From contig NZ_SLZR01000009.1 in assembly GCF_004341165.1 (NCBI RefSeq), positions 62,001 through 126,000 on the forward strand: a stretch of 64,000 nucleotides of DNA. Direction: 5' to 3'. This DNA is from Reinekea marinisedimentorum. Its GTDB lineage: Bacteria; Pseudomonadota; Gammaproteobacteria; Pseudomonadales; Natronospirillaceae. This document shows, piece after piece, positions 15,491 to 47,705 of this stretch (positions are counted from its first letter, which is position 1; the number at the start of each line of letters is the position of its first letter). A program made the position numbers and the translations under genes. Under the pieces are notes generated by a model. That model did no database searches. It was given only the letters and a program-made list of their open reading frames with translations, and was not told the origin of the DNA.

Positions 15491-15654
15491 CTAGTGGGCC
15501 ATGCGCAAAGTTAGGTAATTGTTCGCTTCGCAGTTCAGCGAAGATATTCGTTGAAAAACCTTGAAATAGCGCCACTATTCCAGCGCTTTTTCGCCTTGAT
15601 CTTCACTGAACTACTGTGCTCCTTAGTGACCGAACTTTACGCATAGCCCACTAG
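15491..15654. mobile_element. Foldback MITE, copy 1
   Basis: A 164-bp element beginning and ending in CTAG, with terminal inverted repeats starting CTAGTGGGC. The inverted similarity continues across most of both halves, so the element is nearly one long imperfect palindrome around a small central hairpin near AATAGCGCCACTATT. It encodes no transposase. The copy at 47542-47705 has the same length and differs at about eight positions. Confidence 0.88.
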
Positions 15655-32695: not shown

Positions 32696-34060
32696 ATGAC
32701 TGCACATTCTTCAACACTACCGGCCGCAACCATGACCGAGGCAATTCTGGAAAGTATTTCCGAGGGTGTGTTCACGGTCGATAATCAGTGGCGCATCACC
32801 TCTTTTAATCGGGCTGCAGAGCAGATCACCGGTGTCACCCGCGCCGAGGCGCTGCAGCAGCGCTGCTACGAAGTGTTCAAGTCGAGCATGTGCGAAGGCA
32901 ATTGCCCGTTGCGTGCCACCCTTACCAACAACCAACCCATCATCAATCGCGCCGGTTATTTTATTAACGCCGCCGGTGAACGCGTTGCAGTCTCGGTTTC
33001 AACTGCGGTGCTGAAAGATGCCGAAGGCCGGGTCATTGGCGGTGCAGAAACCTTTCGTGACTTAAGCGAGGTAGAAACGCTACGCAGTGCACTGAATAAC
33101 CCGGCTCAAGCCGGTCGAATGCTCAGTCACAGTCCGGCCATGCAGCCGGTCATCAATCTCGTGCCGGATGTTGCAGCCAGTAACAGTACGGTACTCATCC
33201 AGGGTGAAACCGGCACCGGCAAAGAGTTGCTGGCGAAAACCATTCACGAACTCAGCCCGCGCGCCGGTGCGCCCTTTGTCGCGGTCAACTGCGGCGCACT
33301 GCCAGATAACCTGCTGGAATCGGAACTGTTCGGCTACAAAAAAGGTGCCTTTACCGGCGCCACGCAGGATAAGCCGGGACGCTTCGCACTGGCCGGAAAC
33401 GGTACCTTGTTCCTGGACGAAATAGGTGAGGTCAGCCCGGCGCTGCAGGTTCGCCTGCTGCGGGTTCTGCAGGAGCAAACCTTTGAGCCCTTAGGCTCAA
33501 CCAAATCGGAACAGTGCCATGCGCGCATCATTGCCGCTACGCATCGGGATTTAACCGAGCTGGTGGCTGCCGGCAGCTTCAGGCAGGATCTGTTCTACCG
33601 CATTCATGTGGTCGATTTAACCATGCCGCCGCTGCGCGAGCGCAGTGAAGATATCGATTTGCTGGTGAATCAGTTTATTCATCATTTTAATCAGCAGCAG
33701 GGCCGCAGTATTACCGGCATTCACTCTCAGGCACTGGCTGTGCTTCGGGCGTACCGCTGGCCGGGAAATATTCGGGAGCTTGAAAACGTCATTGAGCGCG
33801 CCTTTGTGCTTTGTCGCGAGGGCGATATTGAGCTCCGCCACTTACCGGCCGGATTAAACCAGCCGCTTTCCGGTTCGCCCGCAGCAAGCAGCGGCAGCGG
33901 AACGATTACAGACAGCCGTCGCTCGGCTGAAAGACAGCGCATCGTCGAGTCGCTCGAGCGCCATCAGTACAACCGCAAGGCAACAGCCGATGAGCTGGGT
34001 ATCCATAAAACAACGCTGTACCGCAAGATGAAAGCGCTCGCTATTGACCCTCAGCGCTAA
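32696..34060 (+). CDS. PAS-containing sigma54-dependent activator of the metal-cluster operon
   Basis: A 454-residue bacterial enhancer-binding protein. An N-terminal PAS domain (about 15-125) carries three cysteines, C57, C66 and C70 (C-x8-C-x3-C), which could bind a metal or Fe-S cluster or sense redox. The AAA+ domain has Walker A GETGTGKE at 170-177 and GAFTGA at 217-222, the loop that contacts sigma54. A Fis-type helix-turn-helix ([20 protein letters not shown]) ends the protein. There is no response-regulator receiver domain, so it senses its signal directly. It lies immediately upstream of twin inverted repeats and a sigma54 promoter in front of the NifX/MinD-like operon. A sigma54 activator likewise accompanies the ORP genes of Desulfovibrio. 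Confidence 0.9.
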
Positions 34061-34088
34061 CGGACCTCAATAATAAGAATCGGTCTGG

Positions 34089-34127
34089 GGTTGCAGTTTT
34101 GCAACCTATTGCAACTAAAAGGTTGCA
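34089..34127. promoter_or_regulatory. Twin inverted repeats, putative enhancer sites for the sigma54 activator
   Basis: Site 1 is GGTTGCA-N4-TGCAACC (34089-34106) and site 2 is TGCAAC-N6-GTTGCA (34110-34127). Their centres are 21 bp apart, two helical turns. They lie about 100-120 bp upstream of the sigma54 promoter and just after the activator gene, the usual place for enhancer sites. Confidence 0.8.
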
Positions 34128-34215
34128 TCTTTGCATTCTCCGAGCGTTCTTCATGCTCACCCCTATTTCGTAATAAATCCATTAAAAACAATCACTTATA
34201 TCCGATTGCCAAGGT

Positions 34216-34232
34216 TGGTTTCGTTTTTGCTA
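34216..34232 (+). promoter_or_regulatory. Sigma54 (-24/-12) promoter
   Basis: TTGG, ten bases, then GCTA: GG at 34217-34218 and GC at 34229-34230 with the exact spacing required by sigma54, and TTTGCT around -12. Transcription would start near 34242, just ahead of the first NifX-like gene. Confidence 0.82.
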
Positions 34233-34264
34233 TCTGACAGATAAGGGATGCAGCGGAGCGGAGC

Positions 34265-34708
34265 ATGAAGGTTGCGATAACAGTCTGGCAACAACGGGTT
34301 TCACCGGTTTTTGATGTCTCCGCGAATTTACTCATGTTGAGCCTGCACGACGGAAAGATCGCTGATGAGCAGGCTATTCCATTGCCCACATCAGGCCCGG
34401 CAGCGAAGCTTGCCTTCATTGCAGCGCTGCAACCCGATGTATTGATCTGTGGTGCGATGTCGGCGCAGATTCAGCACGTGGCAGAAACGCATCCATGGCA
34501 GCTGTACGCCTTTATGAAGGGTAGCGTACGCCGGGTGATGCGAGCGCTGATTGCCGGGGGTGTGCTGGCGGATGATTTCAGCTTACCCGGTTGCACGGCC
34601 CGAAACCGATGCTGCACCGGTAACAAATGGGCTCAGTGTGTTGCGCAAGAGCCGCACGAAAAACGATTCGGGAGGCCGTTATGCCAATCAGAGAAAAACG
34701 AAAATTAA
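34265..34708 (+). CDS. NifX/ORP-like metal-cluster-binding protein with cysteine-rich tail
   Basis: A 147-residue protein opening MKVAITVWQQRVSPVFDVSANLL, the characteristic start of the dinitrogenase iron-molybdenum cofactor (NifX/NafY/ORP) fold; members bind Mo- or Fe-containing clusters. After this domain comes FSLPGCTARNRCCTGNKWAQC, a tail with four cysteines in 16 residues that could hold metal. It is the first gene after the sigma54 promoter, with GGAG six bases upstream of the start. It overlaps the next gene by 28 bases. Nitrogenase genes are absent here, so a nitrogenase role is unlikely. Confidence 0.85.
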   Translation: MKVAITVWQQRVSPVFDVSANLLMLSLHDGKIADEQAIPLPTSGPAAKLAFIAALQPDVLICGAMSAQIQHVAETHPWQLYAFMKGSVRRVMRALIAGGVLADDFSLPGCTARNRCCTGNKWAQCVAQEPHEKRFGRPLCQSEKNEN

Positions 34709-35220
34709 ATCGTTCAGGCCGTCCGGGGCGTGGCGAAGGCCGCTGCGAAAGTGAGCCACAACAAGACATGCGCCGCGGTGCGGGTGATCGTGGTAAGGGT
34801 TTTGGCCCAGGTCGCAGACAAGCAGCAATACCGGTAAGTCCGGTCAATCAGGTTACACAAGTAAAAATAGAGAAGCCCTTTATGAAGATAGCCATTTCAA
34901 CCACCGAAAACTCTAGTGATGCACTCATGGATGAACGGTTCGGCAGAGCGCCGGGGTTTCTGTTATTCGATACCGGCACGTCGAAAAATGAGTTTATTAA
35001 TAATCAAACCAATGTGGCAGCACGCCAAAGTGCAGGCATTCAATCGGCACAGGCACTGGTGAATAAAGGGGTCGAGGCGGTTATCAGCGGTCACTGCGGC
35101 CCTAAGGCTTTCCGGGTGTTAAACGATGCCGGTGTGAAGGTGTTTATGAGTGCACCTGTAAAAGTTTCAGAAGCGGTCTCCAGACTCCAGGCCGGTGAAC
35201 TTGAACAGCAACTGAGCTAA
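34681..35220 (+). CDS. Gly/Arg-rich domain fused to a NifX/ORP-like domain
   Basis: About 179 residues from ATG 34681, which has a GGGAGG ribosome site. The first 45 residues are rich in Arg and Gly (SGRPGRGEGR, GDRGKGFGPGRR), resembling short RG-rich proteins that often sit beside NifX-like genes in anaerobes. A linker follows, then a complete NifX/ORP fold starting MKIAISTTENSSDALMDERFGRAPGFLLFD. An internal ATG at 34882 could yield the NifX domain alone. Whether the fusion is translated whole is not certain. The likely role is carrying or scaffolding a metal cluster for the following ATPases. Confidence 0.82.
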   Translation: MPIREKRKLNRSGRPGRGEGRCESEPQQDMRRGAGDRGKGFGPGRRQAAIPVSPVNQVTQVKIEKPFMKIAISTTENSSDALMDERFGRAPGFLLFDTGTSKNEFINNQTNVAARQSAGIQSAQALVNKGVEAVISGHCGPKAFRVLNDAGVKVFMSAPVKVSEAVSRLQAGELEQQLS

Positions 35221-35238
35221 GTAAACGAGGGTAGTACG

Positions 35239-36093
35239 GTGAAAATAGCTATTGCCTCCGGTAAAGGTGGCACCGGTAAAACAACCTTATCTGTAGCGTT
35301 GGCGCTCTCTGCAGATGAACCGGTGCAGTACCTCGATTGTGATGTGGAAGCTCCTAATGGCGCGCTCTTTCTGAAGCCGGAAAGGTGCGCTCAGGAATAC
35401 GTTAATGTCATGGTGCCGGTGGTGAATGCAGAGCTGTGTAATGGTTGTGGCAAGTGTGCCCGTGTTTGCCAGTTTGGCGCCATCATCGCCAACAGGGCAG
35501 CGCGCAGTGCTACGGTGTTTCCGGAAATGTGTCACGCCTGTGGTGGCTGTGCGCTGGCCTGCCGAATGAACGCCATTACTGAACAAGCCAGATGTGTAGG
35601 CGTTGTGGAGCAGGGCAAGTCTGGCCGTATTGAATTCATTCAGGGGCGCTTGAACATTGGTGAAACCATGGCGCCTACAGTGATTCGCGCGGTGAAAGAT
35701 AAAATTGATCCACAAAAACTAGCCATTATCGACAGCCCGCCGGGCACTTCCTGCCCAATGATTATGACCACTAAGGATGCCGATTTTGTATTGCTGGTGA
35801 CCGAGCCCACACCCTTTGGCTTGCACGACCTAACCCTGGCTGTTGACACGGTGCGACAACTGAAGCGGCCGTTCGCTGTGGTTATCAATCGCAGCGACAG
35901 TGGCGATGCGCGTGTCGAAGACTATTGTCGTCAGCAGAATATTGATGTGCTGTTGCGCATTCCTGAGAGTCGCCGTGCGGCACAGCACTATTCGCGTGGT
36001 GACAGTGTGCTGGCGGCCTTTCCGGGTCTTTCTGCACAGCTGCGCAGCCTGTTGAATGACATTCGTCAGCGTATACAGAGGGCTGCGGCATGA
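35239..36093 (+). CDS. MinD/Mrp-like ATPase with two [4Fe-4S] motifs (first)
   Basis: A 284-residue P-loop ATPase with the deviant Walker A SGKGGTGKTT at 7-16 and, inserted after the first strands, a two-cluster ferredoxin domain: C67-x2-C70-x2-C73-x3-C77 and C98-x2-C101-x2-C104-x3-C108. This ParA/MinD plus ferredoxin layout is that of the paired ATPases in the Desulfovibrio ORP complex. It probably couples ATP hydrolysis to assembly, loading or electron transfer to the metal cluster on the NifX-like proteins, but the reaction is not known. GTG start; it overlaps the next gene by four bases (ATGA). Confidence 0.9.
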   Translation: MKIAIASGKGGTGKTTLSVALALSADEPVQYLDCDVEAPNGALFLKPERCAQEYVNVMVPVVNAELCNGCGKCARVCQFGAIIANRAARSATVFPEMCHACGGCALACRMNAITEQARCVGVVEQGKSGRIEFIQGRLNIGETMAPTVIRAVKDKIDPQKLAIIDSPPGTSCPMIMTTKDADFVLLVTEPTPFGLHDLTLAVDTVRQLKRPFAVVINRSDSGDARVEDYCRQQNIDVLLRIPESRRAAQHYSRGDSVLAAFPGLSAQLRSLLNDIRQRIQRAAA

Positions 36094-37001
36094 AAGAACT
36101 GGTCATTCTCAGCGGCAAAGGCGGTACCGGTAAAACCACACTGACATCGGCGTTTGCGTCGCTCGCGAACAATGCCGTACTTGCAGATTGTGATGTCGAT
36201 GCGGCCGATCTGCACTTGATTCTCTCGCCGGATGTTCAGCAAGCCACACAGTTCTACAGTGGCAACGAAGCCCTGATCGATCCGGATTTATGCACAGATT
36301 GCGGTAAATGCCTGGAAGTTTGCCGGTTCGATGCCATTGCGCGCGATGTGCAATCCGGCCTGCCGGTTGTCGACCCGGTTTCCTGTGAAGGTTGTGGTGT
36401 GTGTCGACTGGTGTGTCGCCAGCGCGCCATTGAATTCCCCGAAACGCTCTGTGGCCAGTGGTTTAAATCACAAACCCGATTCGGGCCGATGGTGCATGCA
36501 CGGCTGGGGATTGGTGCTGAAAATTCAGGGCGTCTGGTCAGCCTGGTCCGAAAAGAGGCCCGGGCGTGTGCGCAACAAATACAGGCCGATCTGATTCTGG
36601 TTGACGGGCCTCCGGGCATTGGCTGCCCGGTTATTGCTTCTATTACCGGAGCCAGTGATCTGTTTGTGATTACCGAACCTACGCTGTCCGGAATGCATGA
36701 TATGCAGCGAGTGTTGGAACTGGCACAGCATTTCCGTGTTCCCGCTTACTGCTGTGTCAACAAGTGGGATTTAAACGAACAGATTACTGAACAGATTGAG
36801 TCGCTGGCGATGCAGTTCGGTGCGGTGCCACTGGGCCGCATCTGTTATGACCCGACAGCCACCCGGGCACAAATGCAGGCGCAAACCCTAATCGAAGCCG
36901 GAAACAGTCCGGCTGCAGCTGAAATAAAAGCCATTTGGCAGCAGTTGCAAAAGGCCATTTCACTACCGACAGATCACGCCTCGGCTGCCGAGGTTGTCTG
37001 A
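36090..37001 (+). CDS. MinD/Mrp-like ATPase with two [4Fe-4S] motifs (second)
   Basis: A 303-residue paralogue of the preceding protein: Walker A SGKGGTGKTT at 8-17, clusters from C68, C71, C74, C78 and C99, C102, C105, C109, and a DGPPGIGCP switch region near 192-200. MinD-like proteins dimerise across the ATP, so two adjacent, co-translated paralogues suggest a heterodimer. In Desulfovibrio the equivalent pair belongs to the ORP complex, which has been linked to cell division. Here the gene sits between NifX-like genes in one operon. Confidence 0.9.
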   Translation: MKELVILSGKGGTGKTTLTSAFASLANNAVLADCDVDAADLHLILSPDVQQATQFYSGNEALIDPDLCTDCGKCLEVCRFDAIARDVQSGLPVVDPVSCEGCGVCRLVCRQRAIEFPETLCGQWFKSQTRFGPMVHARLGIGAENSGRLVSLVRKEARACAQQIQADLILVDGPPGIGCPVIASITGASDLFVITEPTLSGMHDMQRVLELAQHFRVPAYCCVNKWDLNEQITEQIESLAMQFGAVPLGRICYDPTATRAQMQAQTLIEAGNSPAAAEIKAIWQQLQKAISLPTDHASAAEVV

Positions 37002-37046
37002 TCAAACAAGACCACTAACAACCAACAACTGAAGAAGAGTGAAACA

Positions 37047-37385
37047 ATGAAAATAGCAATCCCTGTTACCGATGGTGTTTTGGACCCACATTTTGGCCAC
37101 TGCAAAAATTTTGCGATGTTTGATGTGGATAAAGACAACAATCAGGTGACTAAGGTGACCAGCGTAGAAGCCCCGCCACATGAGCCCGGCCTGTTACCGA
37201 AATGGTTGGGTGATCATCACGTTTCTATGGTCATCACCGGTGGCATGGGGCAGCGAGCGATTAGCCTTTGTAATGACAATGGCATCAATGTGGTTTTAGG
37301 TGCACAGCCGCAACCGGCAGCCGTGTTGATTGATGATTTCTTAGCCGGCCGTTTACAGGCTGGGGGTAATGCTTGCGACCACTAG
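37047..37385 (+). CDS. Orange-protein/NifX-like metal-cluster-binding protein
   Basis: A 112-residue single-domain protein starting MKIAIPVTDGVLDPHFGHCKNF and ending GGNACDH, both hallmarks of the stand-alone NifX/ORP group. Desulfovibrio gigas ORP, of similar size, binds a Mo-Cu-Mo sulfide cluster. The conserved HFGHC and C-terminal CDH provide possible ligands. It follows the ATPase genes by 45 bp and is probably in the same transcript. The metal bound here is inferred from homology and from the molybdate-type transporter downstream. Confidence 0.88.
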   Translation: MKIAIPVTDGVLDPHFGHCKNFAMFDVDKDNNQVTKVTSVEAPPHEPGLLPKWLGDHHVSMVITGGMGQRAISLCNDNGINVVLGAQPQPAAVLIDDFLAGRLQAGGNACDH

Positions 37386-37491
37386 TCGTTCTTGCATTCG
37401 TTGCAGAGTGTGCCGTTTTTACCGGTAGTCAGGAGCGGTACGCTCAATACTTAAATACAGAAAGCAGCTTTGCTGAGCAATAAGGAAGATT

Positions 37492-38388
37492 ATGACTGCA
37501 CACTCCACCGTTACTGCCATTGCTCCGGCATGTCAGGTTTGTGTTAGAAACCAGGCTCAATCAGCAGCTCGCTTTGCCAGATTAAACAAACAGCAAACTG
37601 AACATGTTATGGCCGTTGTTGCGCAGCAAATTGAACAATCCAGAACCAAACCAATCATCGTACAAAACATTGTACGCACGGTGGCAGATGCCATTATAAA
37701 TGAGCTTTGTGCCGCAGAAGACTTTGATATTTATGGCAGTGTAAAAGAGCTATCGAATAAAATAGCTTGTCAATATATCAATACCTTCAAAAAACAGATT
37801 GAGCAAAGTGACTCGCCGCTGGAAAAAGCCATTCAGATAGCTGCGGCGGGTAATATTATTGATTTTGGTGCGAAGAGCCATGGCGAAATCGATATCGAAA
37901 AAGAACTGGAGAACCTCAATAAAACCGGCTTTAACCGTTACGACATTAATCCCTTTCGTGCCGCATTAGAACGAGCAAAAAGCTTGCTTTATATATGTGA
38001 TAACAGCGGCGAAATTGTCTGTGACATGCTGTTTATTACTCAACTGAAAAAACAATACCCAAGATTAACCATTACAGCCGCTGTGCGTGAAAAACCAATT
38101 ATTAATGATGCCACCATGCAGGATGCAAGAAGCATTGGCCTGACAGATGTGGTTTCGGTTATCTCCAGTGGCAGTATATACCCTGGCACTATTCTGAATG
38201 AAACCTGCTCTGAGTTTAAGAGTTTATATAAGTCTTCGGATGTTGTTTTATCTAAGGGGCAGGGAAATTATGAAACCCTGCTGCCAACCTCAGATAAGCG
38301 CCTGTTCTTTTTACTGCGCATAAAATGTGAAGCGATGGCTGCACTTTCCTCTGTCGAGATTGGTAGCCTGGTTTTACTGCAGGGTTAA
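37492..38388 (+). CDS. DUF89 (ARMT1-like) family protein
   Basis: A 298-residue protein of the DUF89 group, seen from the N-terminal CQVCVRNQA cysteine pair, the CDNSGEIVCDMLFI motif and VVLSKGQGNYETL near the C-terminus; these Asp and Asn residues bind a divalent metal in characterised members. DUF89 enzymes are metal-dependent phosphatases thought to remove damaged metabolites. The compact form with an N-terminal CxxC is typical of archaea and anaerobes. It lies 106 bp after the ORP-like gene. Its role in the cluster is unknown. Confidence 0.82.
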   Translation: MTAHSTVTAIAPACQVCVRNQAQSAARFARLNKQQTEHVMAVVAQQIEQSRTKPIIVQNIVRTVADAIINELCAAEDFDIYGSVKELSNKIACQYINTFKKQIEQSDSPLEKAIQIAAAGNIIDFGAKSHGEIDIEKELENLNKTGFNRYDINPFRAALERAKSLLYICDNSGEIVCDMLFITQLKKQYPRLTITAAVREKPIINDATMQDARSIGLTDVVSVISSGSIYPGTILNETCSEFKSLYKSSDVVLSKGQGNYETLLPTSDKRLFFLLRIKCEAMAALSSVEIGSLVLLQG

Positions 38389-38608
38389 CGGTTACGTTAA
38401 AGTGAGCGTTATAGGCCAACGCCTTTTTATAATCTGGTTTCGTTGAATGCTCTATTAGCTTGTCGGCTTCATTACAACACTTTGTCACCTTTAAAGGTTT
38501 TTTCAAAATTTTCTGAAATTCTACGTGCTTTATATGTGTATTTTATAGGTGTGTATTTTGCAGGTTAAGTTTTGTTTTGTTTTTTTCATTACAAGAGGCC
38601 GCGTTGGT

Positions 38609-39418
38609 ATGTTTAAAATTATTTCTTGCTATTGGTTTCAGGTTTCGGCTCGGTACGTAATTTGTTTTTGTTCGGGTTTTATCTTTTTTACGGGCAACTG
38701 TTTTGCTGAGCAGGTTTTATTCGTGCATGCAGGTGCTGGTTTGAGACCCGCACTCGATATTATCGCTGCGGATTTTGAAGCTGAAACGTCAATAAAAGTA
38801 TTGATTGATTATGCAGGTTCCGGGCAATCGCTGGCTCGTATCGGTACCAGTCAAAAAGGTGATGTGTTTATTCCCGGCTCTGAAGTTTATTTAGACAAAC
38901 TTAAGCAGACTATGGCGGTTAAGTCTGTCTATAGGGTTGCCTTACACACACCGGTGATTGGTGTGAATGTAAATAGAGCTGATCAAATTCATGAATTCAG
39001 TGATTTAACAAAGAGTGGTGTTCGGATAGGGCTGGGTGATCCGGCATCCATGGCCCTTGGGCGCACTGCGGTCTCCATTCTGGAGGCTTCGGGTATGGGT
39101 GAAGGCGTGAAAGAAAACACAGTAGTGTATGCTGCAACGATAAAGCAATTGGCTCTGTACTTAACACGCGGCGATATAGACGCAGCCATCATCGGCCGTT
39201 CGGATGCTATACAAAACAAAGATAGCGTTGTTTTGTTGGATATTAACCCCGCATGGTATAACCCTGAAGTTATCGCAGTAGGCGTATTGGGTTGTGCTAA
39301 AGAGCCTGAACTCGCCTTACTATTTGCCCGCTATGTTGCTTCAGGCAGGGGTGTACAAGCCTTTGCTGATGTTGGTTTTCTGCCTTATACAGATATTCAG
39401 GCAACGGCTGAACATTAA
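38609..39418 (+). CDS. Molybdate/tungstate-type ABC binding protein
   Basis: Periplasmic oxyanion-binding protein of the ModA/WtpA kind: after a signal peptide (about residues 1-33, ending NCFA) comes VHAGAGLRPALDIIAADFEAET, then DYAGSGQSLARI and GDVFIPGSEVYLDK, the pattern of archaeal-type molybdate/tungstate binders. Length is 269 residues. ATG 38609 is preceded by AAGAGG; an upstream GTG would spoil the signal peptide. Its stop overlaps the permease start by one base. The surrounding DNA is very AT-rich (37 G+C of 120 bases at 38521-38640). Molybdate is the likely ligand, tungstate possible. Confidence 0.82.
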   Translation: MFKIISCYWFQVSARYVICFCSGFIFFTGNCFAEQVLFVHAGAGLRPALDIIAADFEAETSIKVLIDYAGSGQSLARIGTSQKGDVFIPGSEVYLDKLKQTMAVKSVYRVALHTPVIGVNVNRADQIHEFSDLTKSGVRIGLGDPASMALGRTAVSILEASGMGEGVKENTVVYAATIKQLALYLTRGDIDAAIIGRSDAIQNKDSVVLLDINPAWYNPEVIAVGVLGCAKEPELALLFARYVASGRGVQAFADVGFLPYTDIQATAEH

Positions 39419-40230
39419 TGCCAGCTATGTTTATCGCTTTTTTGTTCCCTTTGGTGTTGTTCAGTTCTGTCATTATTGGCGCTGTAGCTTCTCTATTATT
39501 TTATTTGTCGCCAAACGAACTCTTACAGGCATTTACGTCGGCTGAGACATGGTTTGCTCTGCGCTTAACGTTGAGTTCGTCACTGATCTCATTAATTGCC
39601 TCTCTGTTTTTGGGTATACCCAGCGCTTATGTGCTTGCCCGTTATAGGTTTGCCGGTAAGGTTGTTTTAGAAACGTTGTTGGATCTACCAATGGTAACTC
39701 CGCCACTGGTAGCTGGGCTGGGCTTGTTATTTTTGTTGGGGCGTAATAATCCGGTTGGCCATACCCTGAACAACCTGGGTGTTGAAGTACTGTTTACCCC
39801 GCTTGCCATTATTGTAGCTCAAACGTACGTCGCGACCTCTGTTATTGCTCGCAGTGCTCAGGCAACTTTTAGTCAACAAGACACTGAGTACCGACATATG
39901 GCAATGACCTTGGGGTTATCGTCTGGATGGACATTTATTTTGGTGGAGTTGCCTATGGCTGCTAAGGGTCTGGTGGCCGCAATAATTCTGGGTTGGGCGA
40001 GAGCACTGGGAGAGTTCGGTGCAACGCTAATGATTGCCGGTGCAACTCGCATGTATATCGAAACCCTGCCAGTTGCTGTTTATTTGAGTATATCGAGCGG
40101 TGAATCAGAGCTGGCCGTAGCGTGTGCTGTTATTTTGCTGGCGCTTGCTTTCCTTTTACTCATCGGAATACGGCTGGTCAATACTGCTTATTCAACAGTA
40201 AGGATTCGTCATGTCGAATATTCAGTTTGA
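39418..40230 (+). CDS. Molybdate-type ABC transporter permease
   Basis: A 270-residue inner-membrane permease with about six helices. ASLFLGIPSAYVLARYRFAGK and the EAA loop around AAIILGWARALGEFGATLMIAG are typical of ModB and CysT/W permeases. It is coupled to the binding protein by a one-base overlap and overlaps the ATPase gene by 20 bases, so the three make a single transporter. Substrate assignment follows the binding protein. Confidence 0.85.
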   Translation: MPAMFIAFLFPLVLFSSVIIGAVASLLFYLSPNELLQAFTSAETWFALRLTLSSSLISLIASLFLGIPSAYVLARYRFAGKVVLETLLDLPMVTPPLVAGLGLLFLLGRNNPVGHTLNNLGVEVLFTPLAIIVAQTYVATSVIARSAQATFSQQDTEYRHMAMTLGLSSGWTFILVELPMAAKGLVAAIILGWARALGEFGATLMIAGATRMYIETLPVAVYLSISSGESELAVACAVILLALAFLLLIGIRLVNTAYSTVRIRHVEYSV

Positions 40231-40915
40231 ATCGGTTCAGTGCCGGTTGTTAAAGAATATAAGCTTTTCTATTGAACAGGGGGAGTCAGTTGCGCTTATG
40301 GGGCCTTCGGGGTCCGGAAAGAGCACATTGCTAAAAGTTGCAGCTGGATTACTGGCTTACAAAGGCCGGGCTCAGATTGGTGGAGCATCTATTGATAAGC
40401 TTCCCAGGCATAAGGCAGGGATAGGTTATCTGAGCCAGGACTTACATCTGTTTCCTCATCTGAATGTAGAAAATAATATTCGTTTAGCGCTGTTGTTCGG
40501 TATGGGTCGAAAGATTTCCTGTTCAGATCGTATTGCTCAATCCTTAGCGCTGGCCAGAGCGACGCATTTGGCAAAACTTAAGCCGGCAGAGCTTTCCGGG
40601 GGTGAACGTCAACGAGCTGCGCTAGCCCGGACTATTGCTCGCCAGCCAAATCTACTATTGCTGGATGAACCCTTTTCAAGCCTGGACGCAGTCAATAAAA
40701 AAGATCTCTGGTTTGAATTAAAGCAACTGCAAACTGCTCATTGCATGACCATGATTGTGGTAAGCCACGATATAGAAGAGGCGTCATTTCTTGCGGATCG
40801 TATTCTTTATCTGCGTGGCGGTGAACTGACAGTTGAGCAGGCTAGCCGTTATAGAAATAGCGCTAATGAAATTCAATCACTGGCGGTCTCACAGCCGTCG
40901 AACTATTACATTTGA
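40211..40915 (+). CDS. Molybdate-type ABC transporter ATPase, short form
   Basis: A 234-residue ATPase with Walker A GPSGSGKST, signature LSGGERQ and Walker B LLLLDEPFSSLD. Standard ModC proteins are about 350 residues because of a C-terminal MOP/TOBE domain that binds molybdate and shuts the transporter; this protein ends right after the ATPase core, so that feedback domain is missing. Transport may instead be limited through the sigma54 circuit or downstream proteins. It overlaps the permease gene by 20 bases. Confidence 0.83.
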   Translation: MSNIQFESVQCRLLKNISFSIEQGESVALMGPSGSGKSTLLKVAAGLLAYKGRAQIGGASIDKLPRHKAGIGYLSQDLHLFPHLNVENNIRLALLFGMGRKISCSDRIAQSLALARATHLAKLKPAELSGGERQRAALARTIARQPNLLLLDEPFSSLDAVNKKDLWFELKQLQTAHCMTMIVVSHDIEEASFLADRILYLRGGELTVEQASRYRNSANEIQSLAVSQPSNYYI

Positions 40916-40924
40916 GGTAAAGCA

Positions 40925-41677
40925 ATGGATTTACTGATACAGGCGAAAGAAAAATTAATTAAGTTGCTTCAACAGCAAGCTATCCGTGAGATAAGTATTC
41001 AGGTTTCTGCCAGAGGGTTGACACCAGAAGAAGCGATTGGTCTGCCCGGGAGAACAGACTACCCGATAATGAACGGCAAGGAAGTCATGATCGAAGCCAA
41101 TTGCGATGGTGCATTTGGTCAGGCATTTACCGATGCGCCTGCTTTTTTTAACGGTACCTTAACTGAAGTGTTACAAATGCCTTTAGAAAAAACATCCGAT
41201 CGAGCCTTACTGGTGGCAACACTTAATGCCGTGCTGAGAAAGCATCAATTGGCTGAAAAAACTGTGCATTGTAAAAACGAAGAACCCGAGCAGTGCTCTC
41301 AGTCACTCATGCCCTGGCTGGAAAGTAAGCTGACTGAAGGCCGTAAGATTGGTCTGATAGGCTTACAGCCTGCCATGCTTGAAAGCCTGAGTGAGACCTT
41401 TGGCCCACAGAATATTATGGCTTCAGATTTAAACCCAAATACCATTGGCACAGTAAAATGGTCAGTGACTATCCTTGATGGCAGTTGTGACAACGAGCGA
41501 ATTATTGAGGCGTCAGATTTTATATTGGTAACAGGGTCTTCGATCGTAAATGGTTCCTTTAATGAACTGTATAAGTCTTTGCGTACCAAGACTAAATCGT
41601 TTGCGGCCTTTGGGAATACTATTTCCGGTGTAGCATCTTTGCTGTCCATTCCTCATGTTTGTTTTTATGGGCGCTAA
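40925..41677 (+). CDS. DUF364/DUF4213 putative heavy-metal chelation protein
   Basis: A 250-residue protein beginning nine bases after the ATPase gene. It has an N-terminal DUF4213-like part (IQVSARGLTPEEAIGLPGR) and a C-terminal Rossmann-like DUF364 part (KIGLIGLQPAMLESL, then DFILVTGSSIVNGSF), a family annotated as putative heavy-metal chelators from structural work. Cysteines near the middle (HCKNEEPEQC) could contact metal. Members often lie beside metal or corrinoid transporters, which fits here. Function is not known; I infer handling of the imported metal. It appears to close the operon. Confidence 0.78.
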   Translation: MDLLIQAKEKLIKLLQQQAIREISIQVSARGLTPEEAIGLPGRTDYPIMNGKEVMIEANCDGAFGQAFTDAPAFFNGTLTEVLQMPLEKTSDRALLVATLNAVLRKHQLAEKTVHCKNEEPEQCSQSLMPWLESKLTEGRKIGLIGLQPAMLESLSETFGPQNIMASDLNPNTIGTVKWSVTILDGSCDNERIIEASDFILVTGSSIVNGSFNELYKSLRTKTKSFAAFGNTISGVASLLSIPHVCFYGR

Positions 41678-41753
41678 GTAAAGGGTTCGAGAGTCGAAAG
41701 CTGCATATGTCGTGCTACGCTTACAAGCAAAGCACCCTGGATAATGAGGACCT

Positions 41754-44288
41754 ATGCCAGACAACACCCTCTTCTCGAGTATCTTCACTCAAACCCTGGA
41801 ACAGGCAATAGATGCCGTCGTGGTTATTGATGCAAACAACGTGGTGATGTTGTTTAACCGGGCGGCGGAACAGCTTTGGGATATTCCCAGAGAACAGGTT
41901 ATAGGTGAGAACGTTAAGGTATTGGTTCCGGATGAGATAAAGGCCAGTCACGATGGCTACGTAAACCGGAACCGGGAGACCGGCGAAAACAAAATTGTAG
42001 GCTCCAGCAGAGACATCGAAATTGTCCGCAAGGATGGCTCGATAAGGTGGGGCTCGTTTTCAATATCCAAGGTAGAGGTCGGCGATCAGGTTTTATATAC
42101 CGCCTTTGTTAAAGATGTAACGGCGGCGGTTGCCGAGCGCGAGCGAACTCAAATGCTGTCGCTGGTGACGGACCGTTCAGACAATGCCATCTTTATCACC
42201 GACAACCAGTGGAACATTATTTACATCAACAGCGGGTTTACCCAGTTGTTAGGCTATACCGAGGGTGAAGTTTATGGAAAAACACCCATATCCGTCATCG
42301 CGCCCTATTTCAGCCTTGAAGATGTCAACAGCATGCGGGCCAACCTGGCCTCCGGGAGTGCCGTGCACTCGGATCAACGGGTAGTCACTAAAGGCGGCGA
42401 GGAGTTCTGGTGCTCCGTTATGGCCAACCCTGTATTCGATGAAGCCGGTACTCTCACTAACATCGTTGCCATCCTTTCCGAGATAACGGCCACAAAACTG
42501 CATGAAATACTGCATGCCCAGGTGATTCATGCGATCGCCAGTGATCGGTCACTGGAAGTGGTCATGGATATTGCCAGCAGAGAGCTGAAAGCCTTCAGTA
42601 AAGAGGTATTGCCGTGCATCTTCAGCTTGGCCGAAGACGATCATCTGCAGGTTTTGTCTGCCCTCGATTTTCCGCCGGAGTTCAAACGCCTGAGCAATCA
42701 GCTGCAGCTCTGCGGCGAATACAGCGCGCTGAAGAAAGCCGTTCATTTCAACCGGGATGTGCAAAACACCGGGTTCTTGCAAGGCTTAAAACCGCTGTTT
42801 GTCAGCATGGGTATTCGGGCGTGCTGGACCAGCCCGGTGGTGGGTGATCATGGCGAGAGCATCGGTCTGATTGCGTTTTTCAAAAGAGAAAGCACCGGTC
42901 TGACGGCCATAGAAAAGACCCTGGGCAGCATTCTTGAGTCGCTCTGCAGTTTGGCGATAAACCGGGAAAACCAGCGTCAGCAAATTCGCCAGCTGGCCTA
43001 TTACGACACCCTCACCGATTTGCCCAACCGAAGCCTGTTGTTTGCAGAGGCCGAAAGCGCATTAAGAGAGGCGAAATCTCATGGCCAGAGCCTGGCGGTT
43101 CTGTATTTGGATGTTGACCAGTTTAAGCAGTTTAACGATAGCCATGGCCATTCATCCGGCGATTTTCTTCTGAAGGAATTAGCCTCCAGGCTGAATAAAC
43201 TCTGCATCAACGGTGATTTTTGCGGCCGCTTATCCGCGGATGAGTTTGTCATTATCGCTAAAAACAAATCGACGCCAGAGCTGGGCAATTTCGTTGATGA
43301 AATCCGTCAGTCGGTGGCTAAAAAGATTCATATGCCGGCATTGACGGTTGTGCCTTCCGTTTCTGTGGGTATTAGTGTTTACCCGGATGACGGGCACGAC
43401 ATCAGTACGTTGGTCCATCGTGCCGATGTTGCCATGAATCAGGCTAAGTCTTCAGCACCGGGGCACTGTTCTTACTTCAGCCATGAGCTCAACCAGGCGG
43501 TCATGGCGCGCCAGAAGCTTGAGCGTGCGTTGCAGGAAGCGATAGAAACCAATCAGCTCAATCTGGTCTATCAGCCACAGGTGAATATTGACGATGGCAG
43601 CCTGTACGGTGTTGAGGCGCTTGCCCGTTGGCAGCACCCCGAGCTGGGCTTTGTTTCGCCGGGAGAATTCATTCCGCTGGCGGAAGAGTCTGGCTTAATC
43701 GGCCGGCTAACCCAGTGGGCGCTGACGACGGCCTGTCAGCAGATGGCGCAATGGCGTGCTAATCAGGTGGCCGTTCCGGTGGTTTCCATCAACCTGTCTC
43801 CGGATAATTTTCACAGCCGTGATCTGTGCCAAACTATTTTGGCAGAGCTCAGCGCCTTTAATCTGCAGCCTTCCGATATTCTGTTGGAACTGACCGAAGG
43901 TGTGCTGCTCGATACCAACCCCAACACCATGAAAACGCTGCACGAGATTCACAGCCATGGCATTGGCTTCTCTCTTGATGACTTTGGTACCGGCTATTCG
44001 AGTTTGAGCTATCTGAGGCAGCTGCCGATTAAAGAGCTAAAGCTCGACAAGAGCTTTGTGAAGGACCTGGAGCTCAGCAAAACCGACCAGGCGCTCAGCC
44101 ATGCAGTGATACAGATTGGCCAAAGTCTGAATTTAAAGGTCGTGGCAGAAGGCGTTGAAAATCAGGCGCAGCTTGCTGTGCTCAGGGAGCAGGGTTACCC
44201 GATTGCACAAGGGTATTTGTTTGCCCGGCCTTTAGCCCCTGCAGAGCTTGAAGCCTGGCTGGAGCGCTCCCCGGTGAATGCCGGTTGA
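41754..44288 (+). CDS. PAS-PAS-GGDEF-EAL c-di-GMP phosphodiesterase
   Basis: An 844-residue cytoplasmic signalling protein: two PAS domains (about 10-125 and 135-245), a GAF-like region (about 260-410), a GGDEF domain and an EAL domain. The GGDEF signature reads SADEF near residue 492, so cyclase activity is unlikely; it may bind GTP as an allosteric site. The EAL domain is intact (VEALARW near 620 and DDFGTGYSSLSYL), so the net activity should be c-di-GMP hydrolysis. It follows the metal operon by 76 bp and is convergent with another c-di-GMP gene; a link to the metal system is possible but unproven. Confidence 0.9.
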   Translation: MPDNTLFSSIFTQTLEQAIDAVVVIDANNVVMLFNRAAEQLWDIPREQVIGENVKVLVPDEIKASHDGYVNRNRETGENKIVGSSRDIEIVRKDGSIRWGSFSISKVEVGDQVLYTAFVKDVTAAVAERERTQMLSLVTDRSDNAIFITDNQWNIIYINSGFTQLLGYTEGEVYGKTPISVIAPYFSLEDVNSMRANLASGSAVHSDQRVVTKGGEEFWCSVMANPVFDEAGTLTNIVAILSEITATKLHEILHAQVIHAIASDRSLEVVMDIASRELKAFSKEVLPCIFSLAEDDHLQVLSALDFPPEFKRLSNQLQLCGEYSALKKAVHFNRDVQNTGFLQGLKPLFVSMGIRACWTSPVVGDHGESIGLIAFFKRESTGLTAIEKTLGSILESLCSLAINRENQRQQIRQLAYYDTLTDLPNRSLLFAEAESALREAKSHGQSLAVLYLDVDQFKQFNDSHGHSSGDFLLKELASRLNKLCINGDFCGRLSADEFVIIAKNKSTPELGNFVDEIRQSVAKKIHMPALTVVPSVSVGISVYPDDGHDISTLVHRADVAMNQAKSSAPGHCSYFSHELNQAVMARQKLERALQEAIETNQLNLVYQPQVNIDDGSLYGVEALARWQHPELGFVSPGEFIPLAEESGLIGRLTQWALTTACQQMAQWRANQVAVPVVSINLSPDNFHSRDLCQTILAELSAFNLQPSDILLELTEGVLLDTNPNTMKTLHEIHSHGIGFSLDDFGTGYSSLSYLRQLPIKELKLDKSFVKDLELSKTDQALSHAVIQIGQSLNLKVVAEGVENQAQLAVLREQGYPIAQGYLFARPLAPAELEAWLERSPVNAG

Positions 44289-44328
44289 GGGTTTCAGAAC
44301 CACGGGCATTGTGGTCAGATTAACCCCG

Positions 44329-47300
44329 TCAGCTCGTCTCCGTTGTGCGCGGCGCACTGTGCATTGCGATAAAATCCGCCATCTGTTCGGCCGGTAGCGG
44401 CCTGGCAATCAGATAGCCCTGAATTTCATCGCAGCCAAAGCTGCTCAGAAACGCCAGTTGACCCTTGGTTTCCACACCTTCGGCAATGACCTTCAGGTTC
44501 AGCCCCCTGGCCATCATGATAATGGCGGCAATGATGCTGGAGCTGTCGTTGTCACTGTCGCAGCCATGCACAAAAGATTGATCAATCTTCAGTGTATCGA
44601 CCGGTATTTTGTGCAGGCCACTCAGCGAAGCGTAACCGGTACCAAAGTCATCGATGGCGATGCTCAGGCCGTAGTCTGACAGCTTCTGCAGCGCAGCGCG
44701 GGCACTGCCCTCATCGTTGATCACCGCATTCTCGGTGATTTCGATAGCCATCATCGCCGGGTTTACACCGGTGCGTTCAATCGCGTTGATAAAGTCATCA
44801 GCCATCCTTGGGTTACGCAGCTGTCTGGCCGAGACGTTGACAGAACAGCGCAGCGGCAGGCCAGCATCGGCCCACTTGCGTTGCTGCAGGCAGGTATTCT
44901 TGAATACCCACAGGCCAACCTGATCGATCAGGCCGATCTCTTCGGCGAGCGGGATAAATTCCGTCGGGCCTGTCGCCTGAGCTTGCGGGTCACCAAAGCG
45001 GATCAGTGCCTCGGCTGCAATCACCTGCCGGGTGCGCTCATGGATGATTGGCTGGAACAGCAGTTTAAAGCTGTCTTCGAGCAGGGCGTTGTGCAGGTGG
45101 TTGGTGATTGTCACGGTGCGGGACGTCGCCAATTCCTGTTCGGCCTGATAAAAGCCGTAACGGTTCTTGCCATTCTGTTTGGAGCGGTACATGGCCTTAT
45201 CGGCATTGATCAGCAGGCTGTCGGCGCTGAGGCCATCGCCAGGGTACAGCGCAATGCCGATACTGGCGGTGATAAAGACCGACTGTTTGTGTATGCGGAT
45301 CGGGCCATCGAGCGCCTTAATCATTCGGTCGGCTATCTTGGCGGCATCGCTGCTGCACTCAATGTTGGGCAGTACGACGACAAACTCGTCGCCACCGAAG
45401 CGGCCCAGGGTATCGCCTTCGCGCATGCAGTCGGAAAACAGCTTGGCGACATGGCTGAGCAATATATCGCCGGCCTTGTGGCCCAGAGAGTCGTTGACCA
45501 GCTTAAACCCATCCAGATCGATAAACAGCACAGCAAACTCTGTTTTGGTGCGCTGTGCCGCTGCGACGGTGCTGTTCAGGCGGTCGTTAATCATCGAGCG
45601 GTTGGGCAGGTTGGTGAGCAGGTCGCTGTAGGCCAGCGTTCGGATTCTGGCTTCCTTGGCTTTTAAATCGCGCACATGAAGCTGGTTTTTCAACGCGGAC
45701 GAAAACAGCGTCAGCAGGCTTTCATACACCACGCCCTTGCGTTCATTGAGGTTGAGTACACACATGCCGAACAGGTCTTCCTTAAAGGACAGCGGCATAA
45801 TCACCAGCGCATAGGTGTCTTCATAATCCGCAACCTCGGGCGGCATTAACTCTTCTGCACTGTAGGGCTTACCGGACAGTTGCAGGCGGTGGCCGTCGCG
45901 CATGGCCATAACGCAGCTGGCCGGGTCTTTTTGCCAGTTTTCGCCTTCAAACAGGCTGATGTAGCAATCAGAAATGTTCAGGCCATAAGCCAGTAACTGG
46001 CCGATTTCATCGAGATTGAATTCCGAGTTCAGCTGAATACCGATCTCACGCAGGATGCCAACGTATCGCTTGGCTTCCAGCCTGCGGTAGCGCCCGGCCT
46101 TTTCGTTGCTGGTCTGTACCACCTGAAACAGCTCAGCCGCCAAGGTCTGGCCAGCCTGGCCGGAGCTGTAGCTCTGCATCAGTGCCCAGTGAATGCACAG
46201 CGCGAGTTGCCCCCAAAGGTAGACTTCTTCAGATTTGAGCGTGGTTTCCAGCTGGTGGTGAAAGTAGCTGACCAGAGCGGATGTTTGCTCGCCGGCCAGC
46301 TCTGCAAAGGTCAGCTGCACCAGTTTTTCCGGTGTTCCCGGTGACATGCCTGCCCAGGTTTCCGGCGGTGCGTTATTCAGGGCTTGCTGCAGGTTGGTGA
46401 GCAGCTGTTGCCGGGTCAGGGGCCTGCCATAGGTGTATTGCATGGGCCTGGCGACGAGTTTGTCGACACGCTCCCCGGGCCGGTTGCAGCCGCACGAGCG
46501 GCGCACGGCCAGAGAGGTGGGAATGATCAGGCTCTCGGCCTCCGGTCGGCCTTCGATGGCGGCAATGACCCGTTCGGCGGCGTGCCAGCCCAGTTCATAG
46601 GTGGGCTCAACAATGCTGGTCAGCGGAGGCTCGGCAAACAGGCTGTCGACATTGCCGGTACTGCCGGTAACGATGACATCATCCGGGACGCGTATGCCCA
46701 TGCGCTGCAGCGAGGCCACCAGCGATTGCGCCTGACTGTCGGTGCTGGCAACCATGGCCTGCGGCCATTCATCGCGGTTGTCGGTGAACAGCCTTTCCAG
46801 GCCCTGAACCGGGGTGCCGCGGCGCATCTCACAGGCCAGTTCCAGTTGTTCGTTATAGCGCAGACCGTGTGCGCTCATGGCCTCGATCAGCGCTTGTTTT
46901 TTTATTTCCGATGCCCGGTGTCGGCCGGTTGCCCGGGCGTAGGCTATCCGCTCCACCCGGTGCTCTTTATGCAGATGCTCAACAAGCTCAAACATGCCCT
47001 GACGCGGGCTGTAGCCAACGTTTTTATAGCCGGGAATGTCACTGGCCACCGTAATGACCGGAATGGAATCGAAGCGCTTCAGAAACGCCAGTTGTTCATC
47101 CTGCGTGATGTAGCGGCTGAGCGCGCCCATAGGAATGATCAGGCCGCGAATGTGGCCGGTATCAACCAAATCAAAAATACGGTCGCGTGACATATTCACT
47201 TCAACCGGTTTATTGAACTCCGATCCGGCGAAACACAGCACGTTGTAGTTGTGCACCCGGGCATAGTCGCTGGCGCCGAAGATAATGCCTTCGGAAAAGG

Positions 47301-47367
47301 GCGTAGCAATCATGTTGGTGAGAACGGCAATCGTCGGCTTGTTGTTATTGAGTTGGTTGGGCGTCAT
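44329..47367 (-). CDS. LacI-type ligand-binding domain fused to GGDEF-EAL
   Basis: A 1012-residue protein with no signal peptide. Residues about 10-290 form a LacI/periplasmic-binding-type sensor (TIAVLTNMIATPFSEGIIFGASDYA, then PDDVIVTGSTGNVDS), but the helix-turn-helix of LacI is absent. A SCGCN motif ends this part. A linker of about 280 residues with GAF-like features leads to an intact GGDEF domain (GGDEF near 656) and an intact EAL domain (AEALIRF near 785, DDFGTGYASLSGL). It should therefore sense a small ligand, probably a sugar, in the cytoplasm and set c-di-GMP level in either direction. It is convergent with the PAS-GGDEF-EAL gene. Confidence 0.9.
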   Translation of the reverse strand: MTPNQLNNNKPTIAVLTNMIATPFSEGIIFGASDYARVHNYNVLCFAGSEFNKPVEVNMSRDRIFDLVDTGHIRGLIIPMGALSRYITQDEQLAFLKRFDSIPVITVASDIPGYKNVGYSPRQGMFELVEHLHKEHRVERIAYARATGRHRASEIKKQALIEAMSAHGLRYNEQLELACEMRRGTPVQGLERLFTDNRDEWPQAMVASTDSQAQSLVASLQRMGIRVPDDVIVTGSTGNVDSLFAEPPLTSIVEPTYELGWHAAERVIAAIEGRPEAESLIIPTSLAVRRSCGCNRPGERVDKLVARPMQYTYGRPLTRQQLLTNLQQALNNAPPETWAGMSPGTPEKLVQLTFAELAGEQTSALVSYFHHQLETTLKSEEVYLWGQLALCIHWALMQSYSSGQAGQTLAAELFQVVQTSNEKAGRYRRLEAKRYVGILREIGIQLNSEFNLDEIGQLLAYGLNISDCYISLFEGENWQKDPASCVMAMRDGHRLQLSGKPYSAEELMPPEVADYEDTYALVIMPLSFKEDLFGMCVLNLNERKGVVYESLLTLFSSALKNQLHVRDLKAKEARIRTLAYSDLLTNLPNRSMINDRLNSTVAAAQRTKTEFAVLFIDLDGFKLVNDSLGHKAGDILLSHVAKLFSDCMREGDTLGRFGGDEFVVVLPNIECSSDAAKIADRMIKALDGPIRIHKQSVFITASIGIALYPGDGLSADSLLINADKAMYRSKQNGKNRYGFYQAEQELATSRTVTITNHLHNALLEDSFKLLFQPIIHERTRQVIAAEALIRFGDPQAQATGPTEFIPLAEEIGLIDQVGLWVFKNTCLQQRKWADAGLPLRCSVNVSARQLRNPRMADDFINAIERTGVNPAMMAIEITENAVINDEGSARAALQKLSDYGLSIAIDDFGTGYASLSGLHKIPVDTLKIDQSFVHGCDSDNDSSSIIAAIIMMARGLNLKVIAEGVETKGQLAFLSSFGCDEIQGYLIARPLPAEQMADFIAMHSAPRTTETS

Positions 47368-47541: not shown

Positions 47542-47705
47542 CTAGTGGGCCATGCGCAAAGTTAGGTAACGGTTCGCTTCGCAGTTCAGCGAATATCTTC
47601 GTTGAAAAACCTTGAAATAGCGCCACTATTACTGCGCTTTTTCGTCTTGATCTTCACTGAACTACTGTGCTCCTTAGTGACCGAACTTTACGCATGGCCC
47701 ACTAG
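47542..47705. mobile_element. Foldback MITE, copy 2
   Basis: A 164-bp copy with CTAG at both ends, about 95 percent identical (some eight differences) to 15491-15654. It lies between the GGDEF-EAL gene and the DUF3530 gene, 11 bp after the latter's stop. The rest of the gene-free stretch 47368-47716 holds only the AT-rich upstream region of the GGDEF-EAL gene. Confidence 0.88.

Follow-up and report, generated by a model that had tools for sequence, protein, structure and literature searches.

The closest described relatives of the locus analysed here are the orange-protein (ORP) genes of Desulfovibrio. The locus lies in a 64,000-nt stretch of the Reinekea marinisedimentorum genome (the window, to which all positions refer) and places ORP genes beside genes for a DUF89 protein, a molybdate-type importer (ModABC) and a DUF364 protein. 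In D. vulgaris, the orp genes (Orp3, Orp4, Orp5, Orp8 and Orp9; DVU2103-2109) form two divergent operons that encode paired MinD-like ATPases with two 4Fe-4S motifs each and an ORP-type protein, and the published regulatory scheme consists of sigma54, a cognate activator and palindromic sites upstream of the sigma54 promoter (PMC3897727). The orange protein of D. gigas has been reported, as cited in PMC6345978, to hold a Mo-Cu-S cluster, and the MrpORP fusion is known from Desulfovibrio and 98 other proteins (PMC6345978). In Allochromatium vinosum, a gammaproteobacterium like the present host, Alvin_1737-1741 are annotated as NifX-like, two CbiA-like ATPases, NifX-like and hypothetical, the same series as in the window, and on pyrite their expression was 8-75-fold below that on dissolved sulfide (PMC11267869). 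From the annotation and gene order in that published table we infer that Alvin_1737-1741 is an ORP locus; ModABC or DUF364 is not reported with it there. Linkage of DUF364 with ModABC has already been noted (PMC2954201); ModABC-DUF364 modules occur in Pelotomaculum and other anaerobes.

The combination of ORP, ModABC, DUF89 and DUF364 genes was seen only in this host; its parts pair up elsewhere. Two links recur (DUF89 and DUF364 with ORP/NifX genes, and DUF364 with ModABC), and the link between ModABC and ORP was seen here only. We propose, with a probability of roughly 0.4, that the locus serves to import molybdenum and handle it as thio-clusters in sulfidic, low-oxygen conditions.

An orange-protein core with a cognate sigma54 activator

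The program-made list of open reading frames (ORFs) was checked for 34265-41677 and holds ten ORFs there, all on the + strand. The gene assignments of an earlier, first-pass annotation of this DNA (three NifX/ORP-fold proteins, two MinD-like ATPases, DUF89, ModABC and DUF364) hold up against Pfam, TIGR and profile matches. The ORP unit begins earlier than first noted, with an activator gene, and its core at 32696-37385 (the activator, three NifX/ORP-fold proteins and two ATPases) is a known ORP system:

32696-34060, + strand: EBP, a regulator with PAS, sigma54-activator and Fis-HTH parts; cognate ORP activator, its place upstream of ORP genes conserved
34089-34106, no strand assigned: 18-bp palindrome GGTTGCAgtttTGCAACC shortly after the activator stop; likely (predicted) activator binding site
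34217-34231, + strand: sigma54 -24/-12 element GGTTTCGTTTTTGCT, with counterparts of equal form and position in seven homologous loci
34265-34708, + strand: NifX1, a divergent NifX/ORP-fold protein with invariant C62 and PGC110
34681-35220, + strand: NifX2, an ORP-type protein whose closest solved relative is D. gigas ORP (2wfb)
35239-36093, + strand: minD1, a MinD-like ATPase with two 4Fe-4S motifs and an extra invariant C172
36090-37001, + strand: minD2, a MinD-like ATPase with two 4Fe-4S motifs and an extra invariant C179
37047-37385, + strand: NifX3, an MrpORP Di-Nase-type protein with HFGHC and a C-terminal CDH, without an Mrp ATPase domain

NifX2 and NifX3 match PF02579 (E 3e-21 and 1e-18, respectively). 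NifX1 falls below the Pfam cut-off (E 0.045), and a profile built from 23 NifX1 homologues assigns it the same fold as NifX2 and NifX3 in profile-profile comparison, at 97.6-98.8% probability. The single-domain ORP-type protein expected of such a system is thus represented, with NifX2 matching 2wfb at E 7e-17 and differing from it by an additional basic, Gly/Arg-rich N-terminal stretch (34681-34890) outside the ORP fold, which recalls DUF5320 proteins of other ORP loci. Both ATPases have MinD/CbiA domains and keep eight near-invariant ferredoxin cysteines each (0.99-1.00), giving the pair with two 4Fe-4S motifs apiece that is shared with D. vulgaris.

Regulation, too, is predicted from the sequence to be of the Desulfovibrio kind, whose sigma54 control the first-pass annotation had mentioned. 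The -24/-12 element sits between activator and NifX1, 157 nt past the activator stop, and the form GG-N8-TTGCW recurs in seven homologous loci at 120-168 nt past their activator stops; a second inverted pair (34110-34127) follows the palindrome, and related palindromes (e.g. AGTCGCA-N4-TGCGACT) stand at this position in L022, L033, L045 and other loci. Element, palindrome and activator together agree with the scheme published for Desulfovibrio (PMC3897727). Cysteines 57, 66 and 70 of the activator's PAS domain are invariant across 15 homologues, which suggests redox or Fe-S sensing. The 16-bp core of the palindrome has one further perfect copy in the genome, which was considered as a link to nif genes and rejected, since it sits inside an hflK-like coding gene.

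The core departs from D. vulgaris in several ways: it is one collinear run rather than two divergent operons, no Orp5-like gene was seen in it, the locus adds DUF89, ModABC and DUF364, and an MrpORP fusion is missing, NifX3 being the Di-Nase half alone without the Mrp ATPase domain of Orp9. We treat the fusion as a trait of the Desulfovibrio branch and not of every ORP locus.

What the two ATPases do can be read in more than one way. The predicted structure of minD2 (pLDDT 93) ranks MinD first in Foldseek with the nitrogenase Fe protein close behind, and the invariant C172 of minD1 and C179 of minD2 lie at +7 from the switch-II Asp, the spacing of the cluster cysteine in the host's own NifH. 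The pair might then act as an ATP-driven reductase like NifH, in which a cluster on the extra switch-II cysteines joins the two ATPases into a heterodimer and low-potential electrons flow from it to a metal centre of the NifX proteins; yet MinD-type structures score better, the spacing match concerns one residue and a counterpart of the second NifH cluster cysteine was not identified, and we consider this improbable. The spacing is a lead toward a NifH mechanism and no proof of a shared one. The MinD fold also agrees with a cell-division or polar-positioning complex, as proposed, with polar localisation, for the Desulfovibrio ORP proteins (PMC3897727, PMC6345978), in which the metal proteins would be sensors. 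Such a complex would leave the linkage to DUF89, importer and DUF364 unexplained, as well as the eight ferredoxin cysteines kept in each ATPase, and appears very unlikely to be the answer here.

DUF89 recurs in orange-protein loci

37492-38388, + strand: DUF89/ARMT1-like phosphatase-type protein, conserved residues intact

The DUF89 gene matches PF01937 at 7e-65, and its family score and conserved site residues agree with the assignment. It shares a whole-length match, the DN.GE and KGQGN residues and a CxxC with the ARMT1-like/DUF89 damage-control phosphatases 2g8l and 2ffj, from which a role as a metal-dependent phosphatase is predicted, and differs from them in that its family recurs in ORP loci. 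A scan of genome contigs with a minD2 alignment gave 80 ORP loci, 13 of which have DUF89 nearby; in another member of the host's class (L150) it lies downstream of the ATPases. Among 50 ORP genomes, 12 of the 40 DUF89 genes sit in ORP loci, where 0.18 would be expected (the loci make up 0.46% of the DNA); the binomial value of 4e-19 ignores relatedness, and the 12 span several phyla. The neighbourhood check that the first-pass annotation had proposed for DUF89 and ORP-type MinD pairs therefore came out enriched, and linkage of DUF89 to ORP genes elsewhere is supported by gene position.

A molybdate-type importer and a cysteine-bearing DUF364 protein

38609-39418, + strand: ModA-like binding protein (AGAG type), TIGR01256
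39418-40230, + strand: molybdenum-type ABC permease, TIGR01581
40211-40915, + strand: importer ABC ATPase, by domain match
40925-41677, + strand: DUF364 protein of a His-Cys/Cys/Cys subfamily, PF04016

ModA and the permease exceed their curated cut-offs (76.3 against 62.5 for TIGR01256; 242.8 against 210.3 for TIGR01581), the permease staying below that of TIGR02141 modB (177.5 against 182.6). The ModA start is more likely the ATG at 38609, the listed GTG at 38549 falling in a short direct repeat. A GG-N8-TTGCA at 38548 is not claimed as a promoter, its -24 half being poor and a palindrome lacking. The host has a canonical modABC on the same contig about 66 kb away (C9:29950-32557), together with a ModE-like gene, and the window ModA is 16% identical to this paralogue; no ModE box was found near either.

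The DUF364 gene exceeds the PF04016 cut-off (32.3 against 23 bits), and its model (pLDDT 90) best matches the DUF364 crystal structures 3npg and 3l5o, with the enolase-N/Rossmann fold of the family. H115, C116, C124 and C246 are invariant in 11 sequences of its subfamily; the further DUF364 proteins encoded in those genomes mostly have no cysteine at these columns, in an alignment that is partly poor. Nine homologues of the subfamily come from ORP-bearing genomes: five adjoin ModABC-type genes (L132, L135-L138), sharing the order modA-modB-modC-DUF364 with the window, and one sits inside a Granulicella ORP locus (L140). A tenth, on a Dongshaea plasmid, is near DUF134 and NifX genes. No member was found in 397 other Pseudomonadota genomes. 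The first-pass annotation had proposed the same neighbourhood check for DUF364, and here the answer is divided: Granulicella and Dongshaea agree with a link to ORP/NifX genes, but within the 50 genomes taken by themselves, one co-location against 0.14 expected falls short of significance.

On the Dongshaea marina plasmid (NZ_CP028898.1, L153:13578-17023), which is mobilizable, DUF134, NifX-type, thioesterase, DUF364, TauE/SafE and TrmO genes stand together, and minD genes are not annotated near this cluster. Fusions of TrmO_N with FmdE occur near two ModABC-DUF364 modules (L132:12659-13501, L136:2976-3779) as a further molybdenum-linked neighbour.

An island missing from congeners

A homologous ATPase pair is present in most of the 80 ORP loci. 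The order EBP-NifX1-NifX2-minD1-minD2-NifX3 is kept across anaerobic phyla; the full or almost full run was seen in Desulfuromonadales, Hydrogenedentota, Planctomycetes, Acidobacteria and other groups, and a second member of the host's class (L148) has it too. An ORP core in gammaproteobacteria is already known, from A. vinosum (PMC11267869) and from such other members of the class. Near the host its distribution is sporadic: minD2 turned up in 1 genome among 390 from the order and in 6 among 369 from the class, and a plasmid search gave three distant matches only. Other recurrent neighbours of ORP genes (L052, L040, L056, L061, L076 and others) are radical SAM, metallo-beta-lactamase-fold, NifU-like, CoA-disulfide-reductase-like, methyltransferase, DUF5320, DUF134 and Fur-type genes.

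On the left the segment adjoins mdlB, which was located in five of six congeners. The first window gene seen to follow it there is that at 47.7 kb or one close by, and the interval between these flanks contains no gene of the window's 32696-47367 section, although some congeners have two or three unrelated genes in it. Since this stretch is absent from the corresponding site in five genomes of the genus, some 15 kb (32.65-47.6 kb) seem to have been acquired; loss in each of the five is a possible, less likely alternative.

Two further genes lie inside the segment and are linked to the ORP genes by position only:

41754-44288, + strand: PAS-PAS-GAF-GGDEF-EAL protein
44329-47367, - strand: LacI-type periplasmic-binding-like protein with GGDEF-EAL

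A repeat of about 164 nt, resembling a miniature inverted-repeat transposable element, with 29-nt inverted ends (CTAGTGGGCCATGCG...), has full copies at 47542-47705 and 15491-15654 and a partial one at about 2847-2867; the copy at 47542-47705 lies at the right edge of the island.

No nitrogenase gene lies nearby, as first noted, which is true locally; the genome does have nifDK, nifEN and nifH, on contig C12, and by this gene content the host would be a nitrogen fixer. A lone NifX-type gene (contig C11:69879-70391) stands outside the nif and ORP loci.

One route or two modules

The first-pass annotation had described a tight run on one strand that formed a single pathway. The strand is the same throughout, but it does not form a single tight operon: DUF89 is preceded by a gap of 106 nt and ModA by one of about 220 nt, which contains a weak terminator-like hairpin (38406-38422). 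ModABC, whose GC content is lower, is probably transcribed separately. What stands of the single pathway are the pairings of DUF89 with ORP, of DUF364 with ModABC and, in two lineages, of DUF364 with NifX/ORP, and the one segment that holds them; one transcription unit and canonical ModA ligands do not.

Several observations weigh against a joint molybdenum route. In E. coli ModA, a serine and a tyrosine of the binding pocket bind molybdate. Alignments to solved ModA proteins show that in the window ModA both the Ser of AAxS and the Tyr near VYxSD are replaced by Gly, as is also seen in alignment A4, and its cargo may be a different anion than molybdate. A perfect activator palindrome occurs in the window before NifX1 only, with none near ModA. 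GC content is 50-57% in the ORP genes and 42-46% from DUF89 through DUF364; because of this step the two halves may differ in origin. None of the 80 ORP loci has ModA or ModB nearby, so that the expected linkage of the transporter to ORP genes elsewhere failed to appear, and NifX3 is similar to the MrpORP domain, for which Fe-S cluster binding has been reported (PMC6345978).

Together with the likely separate transcription, and with ModABC-DUF364 modules of other anaerobes that do not adjoin ORP genes (some with a canonical ModA), most of these points would fit two independent modules, made adjacent by joint or successive transfer: an ORP operon, DUF89 included, that would traffic or store iron-sulfur, and a ModABC-DUF364 unit for ordinary Mo or W supply. 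We hold this account to be only slightly less probable than the joint route. Against it, DUF89 is linked to ORP genes yet shares the low GC content of the importer half, this DUF364 subfamily occurs with NifX/ORP in two other lineages, and one continuous segment is missing from the congeners.

For the import and handling of molybdenum that we tentatively prefer, the genes, regulatory signals, pairwise linkages and single segment are as described above, and from them we infer the identity of the metal, the direction of its traffic and every catalytic step. The acquired island would couple a sigma54-controlled ORP operon with a molybdate-type importer. Low oxygen and/or sulfide would act on the activator, through the three invariant PAS cysteines, to turn on the ORP operon from its sigma54 promoter. 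ModABC would import molybdate or a related (thio)oxyanion, and the DUF364 protein, with its invariant His-Cys, Cys and Cys, would accept or condition the metal. The ORP-fold proteins, NifX2 being most like D. gigas ORP, would hold it as a sulfur-bridged Mo-S cluster, perhaps with Cu or Fe, and NifX3 may carry Fe-S. The two ATPases, with ferredoxin clusters and the extra switch-II cysteine, would spend ATP on loading, reduction or release of the cluster, and DUF89 might repair a phosphorylated by-product or cofactor intermediate. In the presence of sulfide, molybdate becomes thiomolybdate, from which the D. gigas cluster is built; this chemistry and the sulfide/pyrite expression in A. vinosum, the one expression lead found, are our reasons for proposing Mo handling under sulfide. 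The benefit would be safe handling and supply of Mo for a nitrogen fixer where sulfide converts molybdate to thiomolybdate. We regard as unlikely a stronger form, a complete Mo route apart from the molybdenum cofactor (Moco) and the iron-molybdenum cofactor (FeMo-co), with import, a Cys-rich DUF364 chaperone and ATP-driven assembly of a Mo-S heterometal cluster on orange-type proteins, by which a nitrogen fixer would obtain or store Mo under sulfide.

The role of the extra genes had seemed undescribed in the first-pass annotation, and our literature search, with most subscription journals outside it, turned up no paper that connects ORP with either DUF89 or DUF364; the DUF364-ModABC pairing, in contrast, was already in print (PMC2954201). 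What the orange-protein cluster does has been a question ever since it was discovered, and three linkages, of ORP with DUF89, of ORP/NifX with the Cys-type DUF364 and of that DUF364 with ModABC, supply concrete partners and predictions. If it can be cultivated, a diazotroph that has all of these genes would let the effect of knock-outs be read as Mo-dependent growth, which would be simpler than in sulfate reducers.

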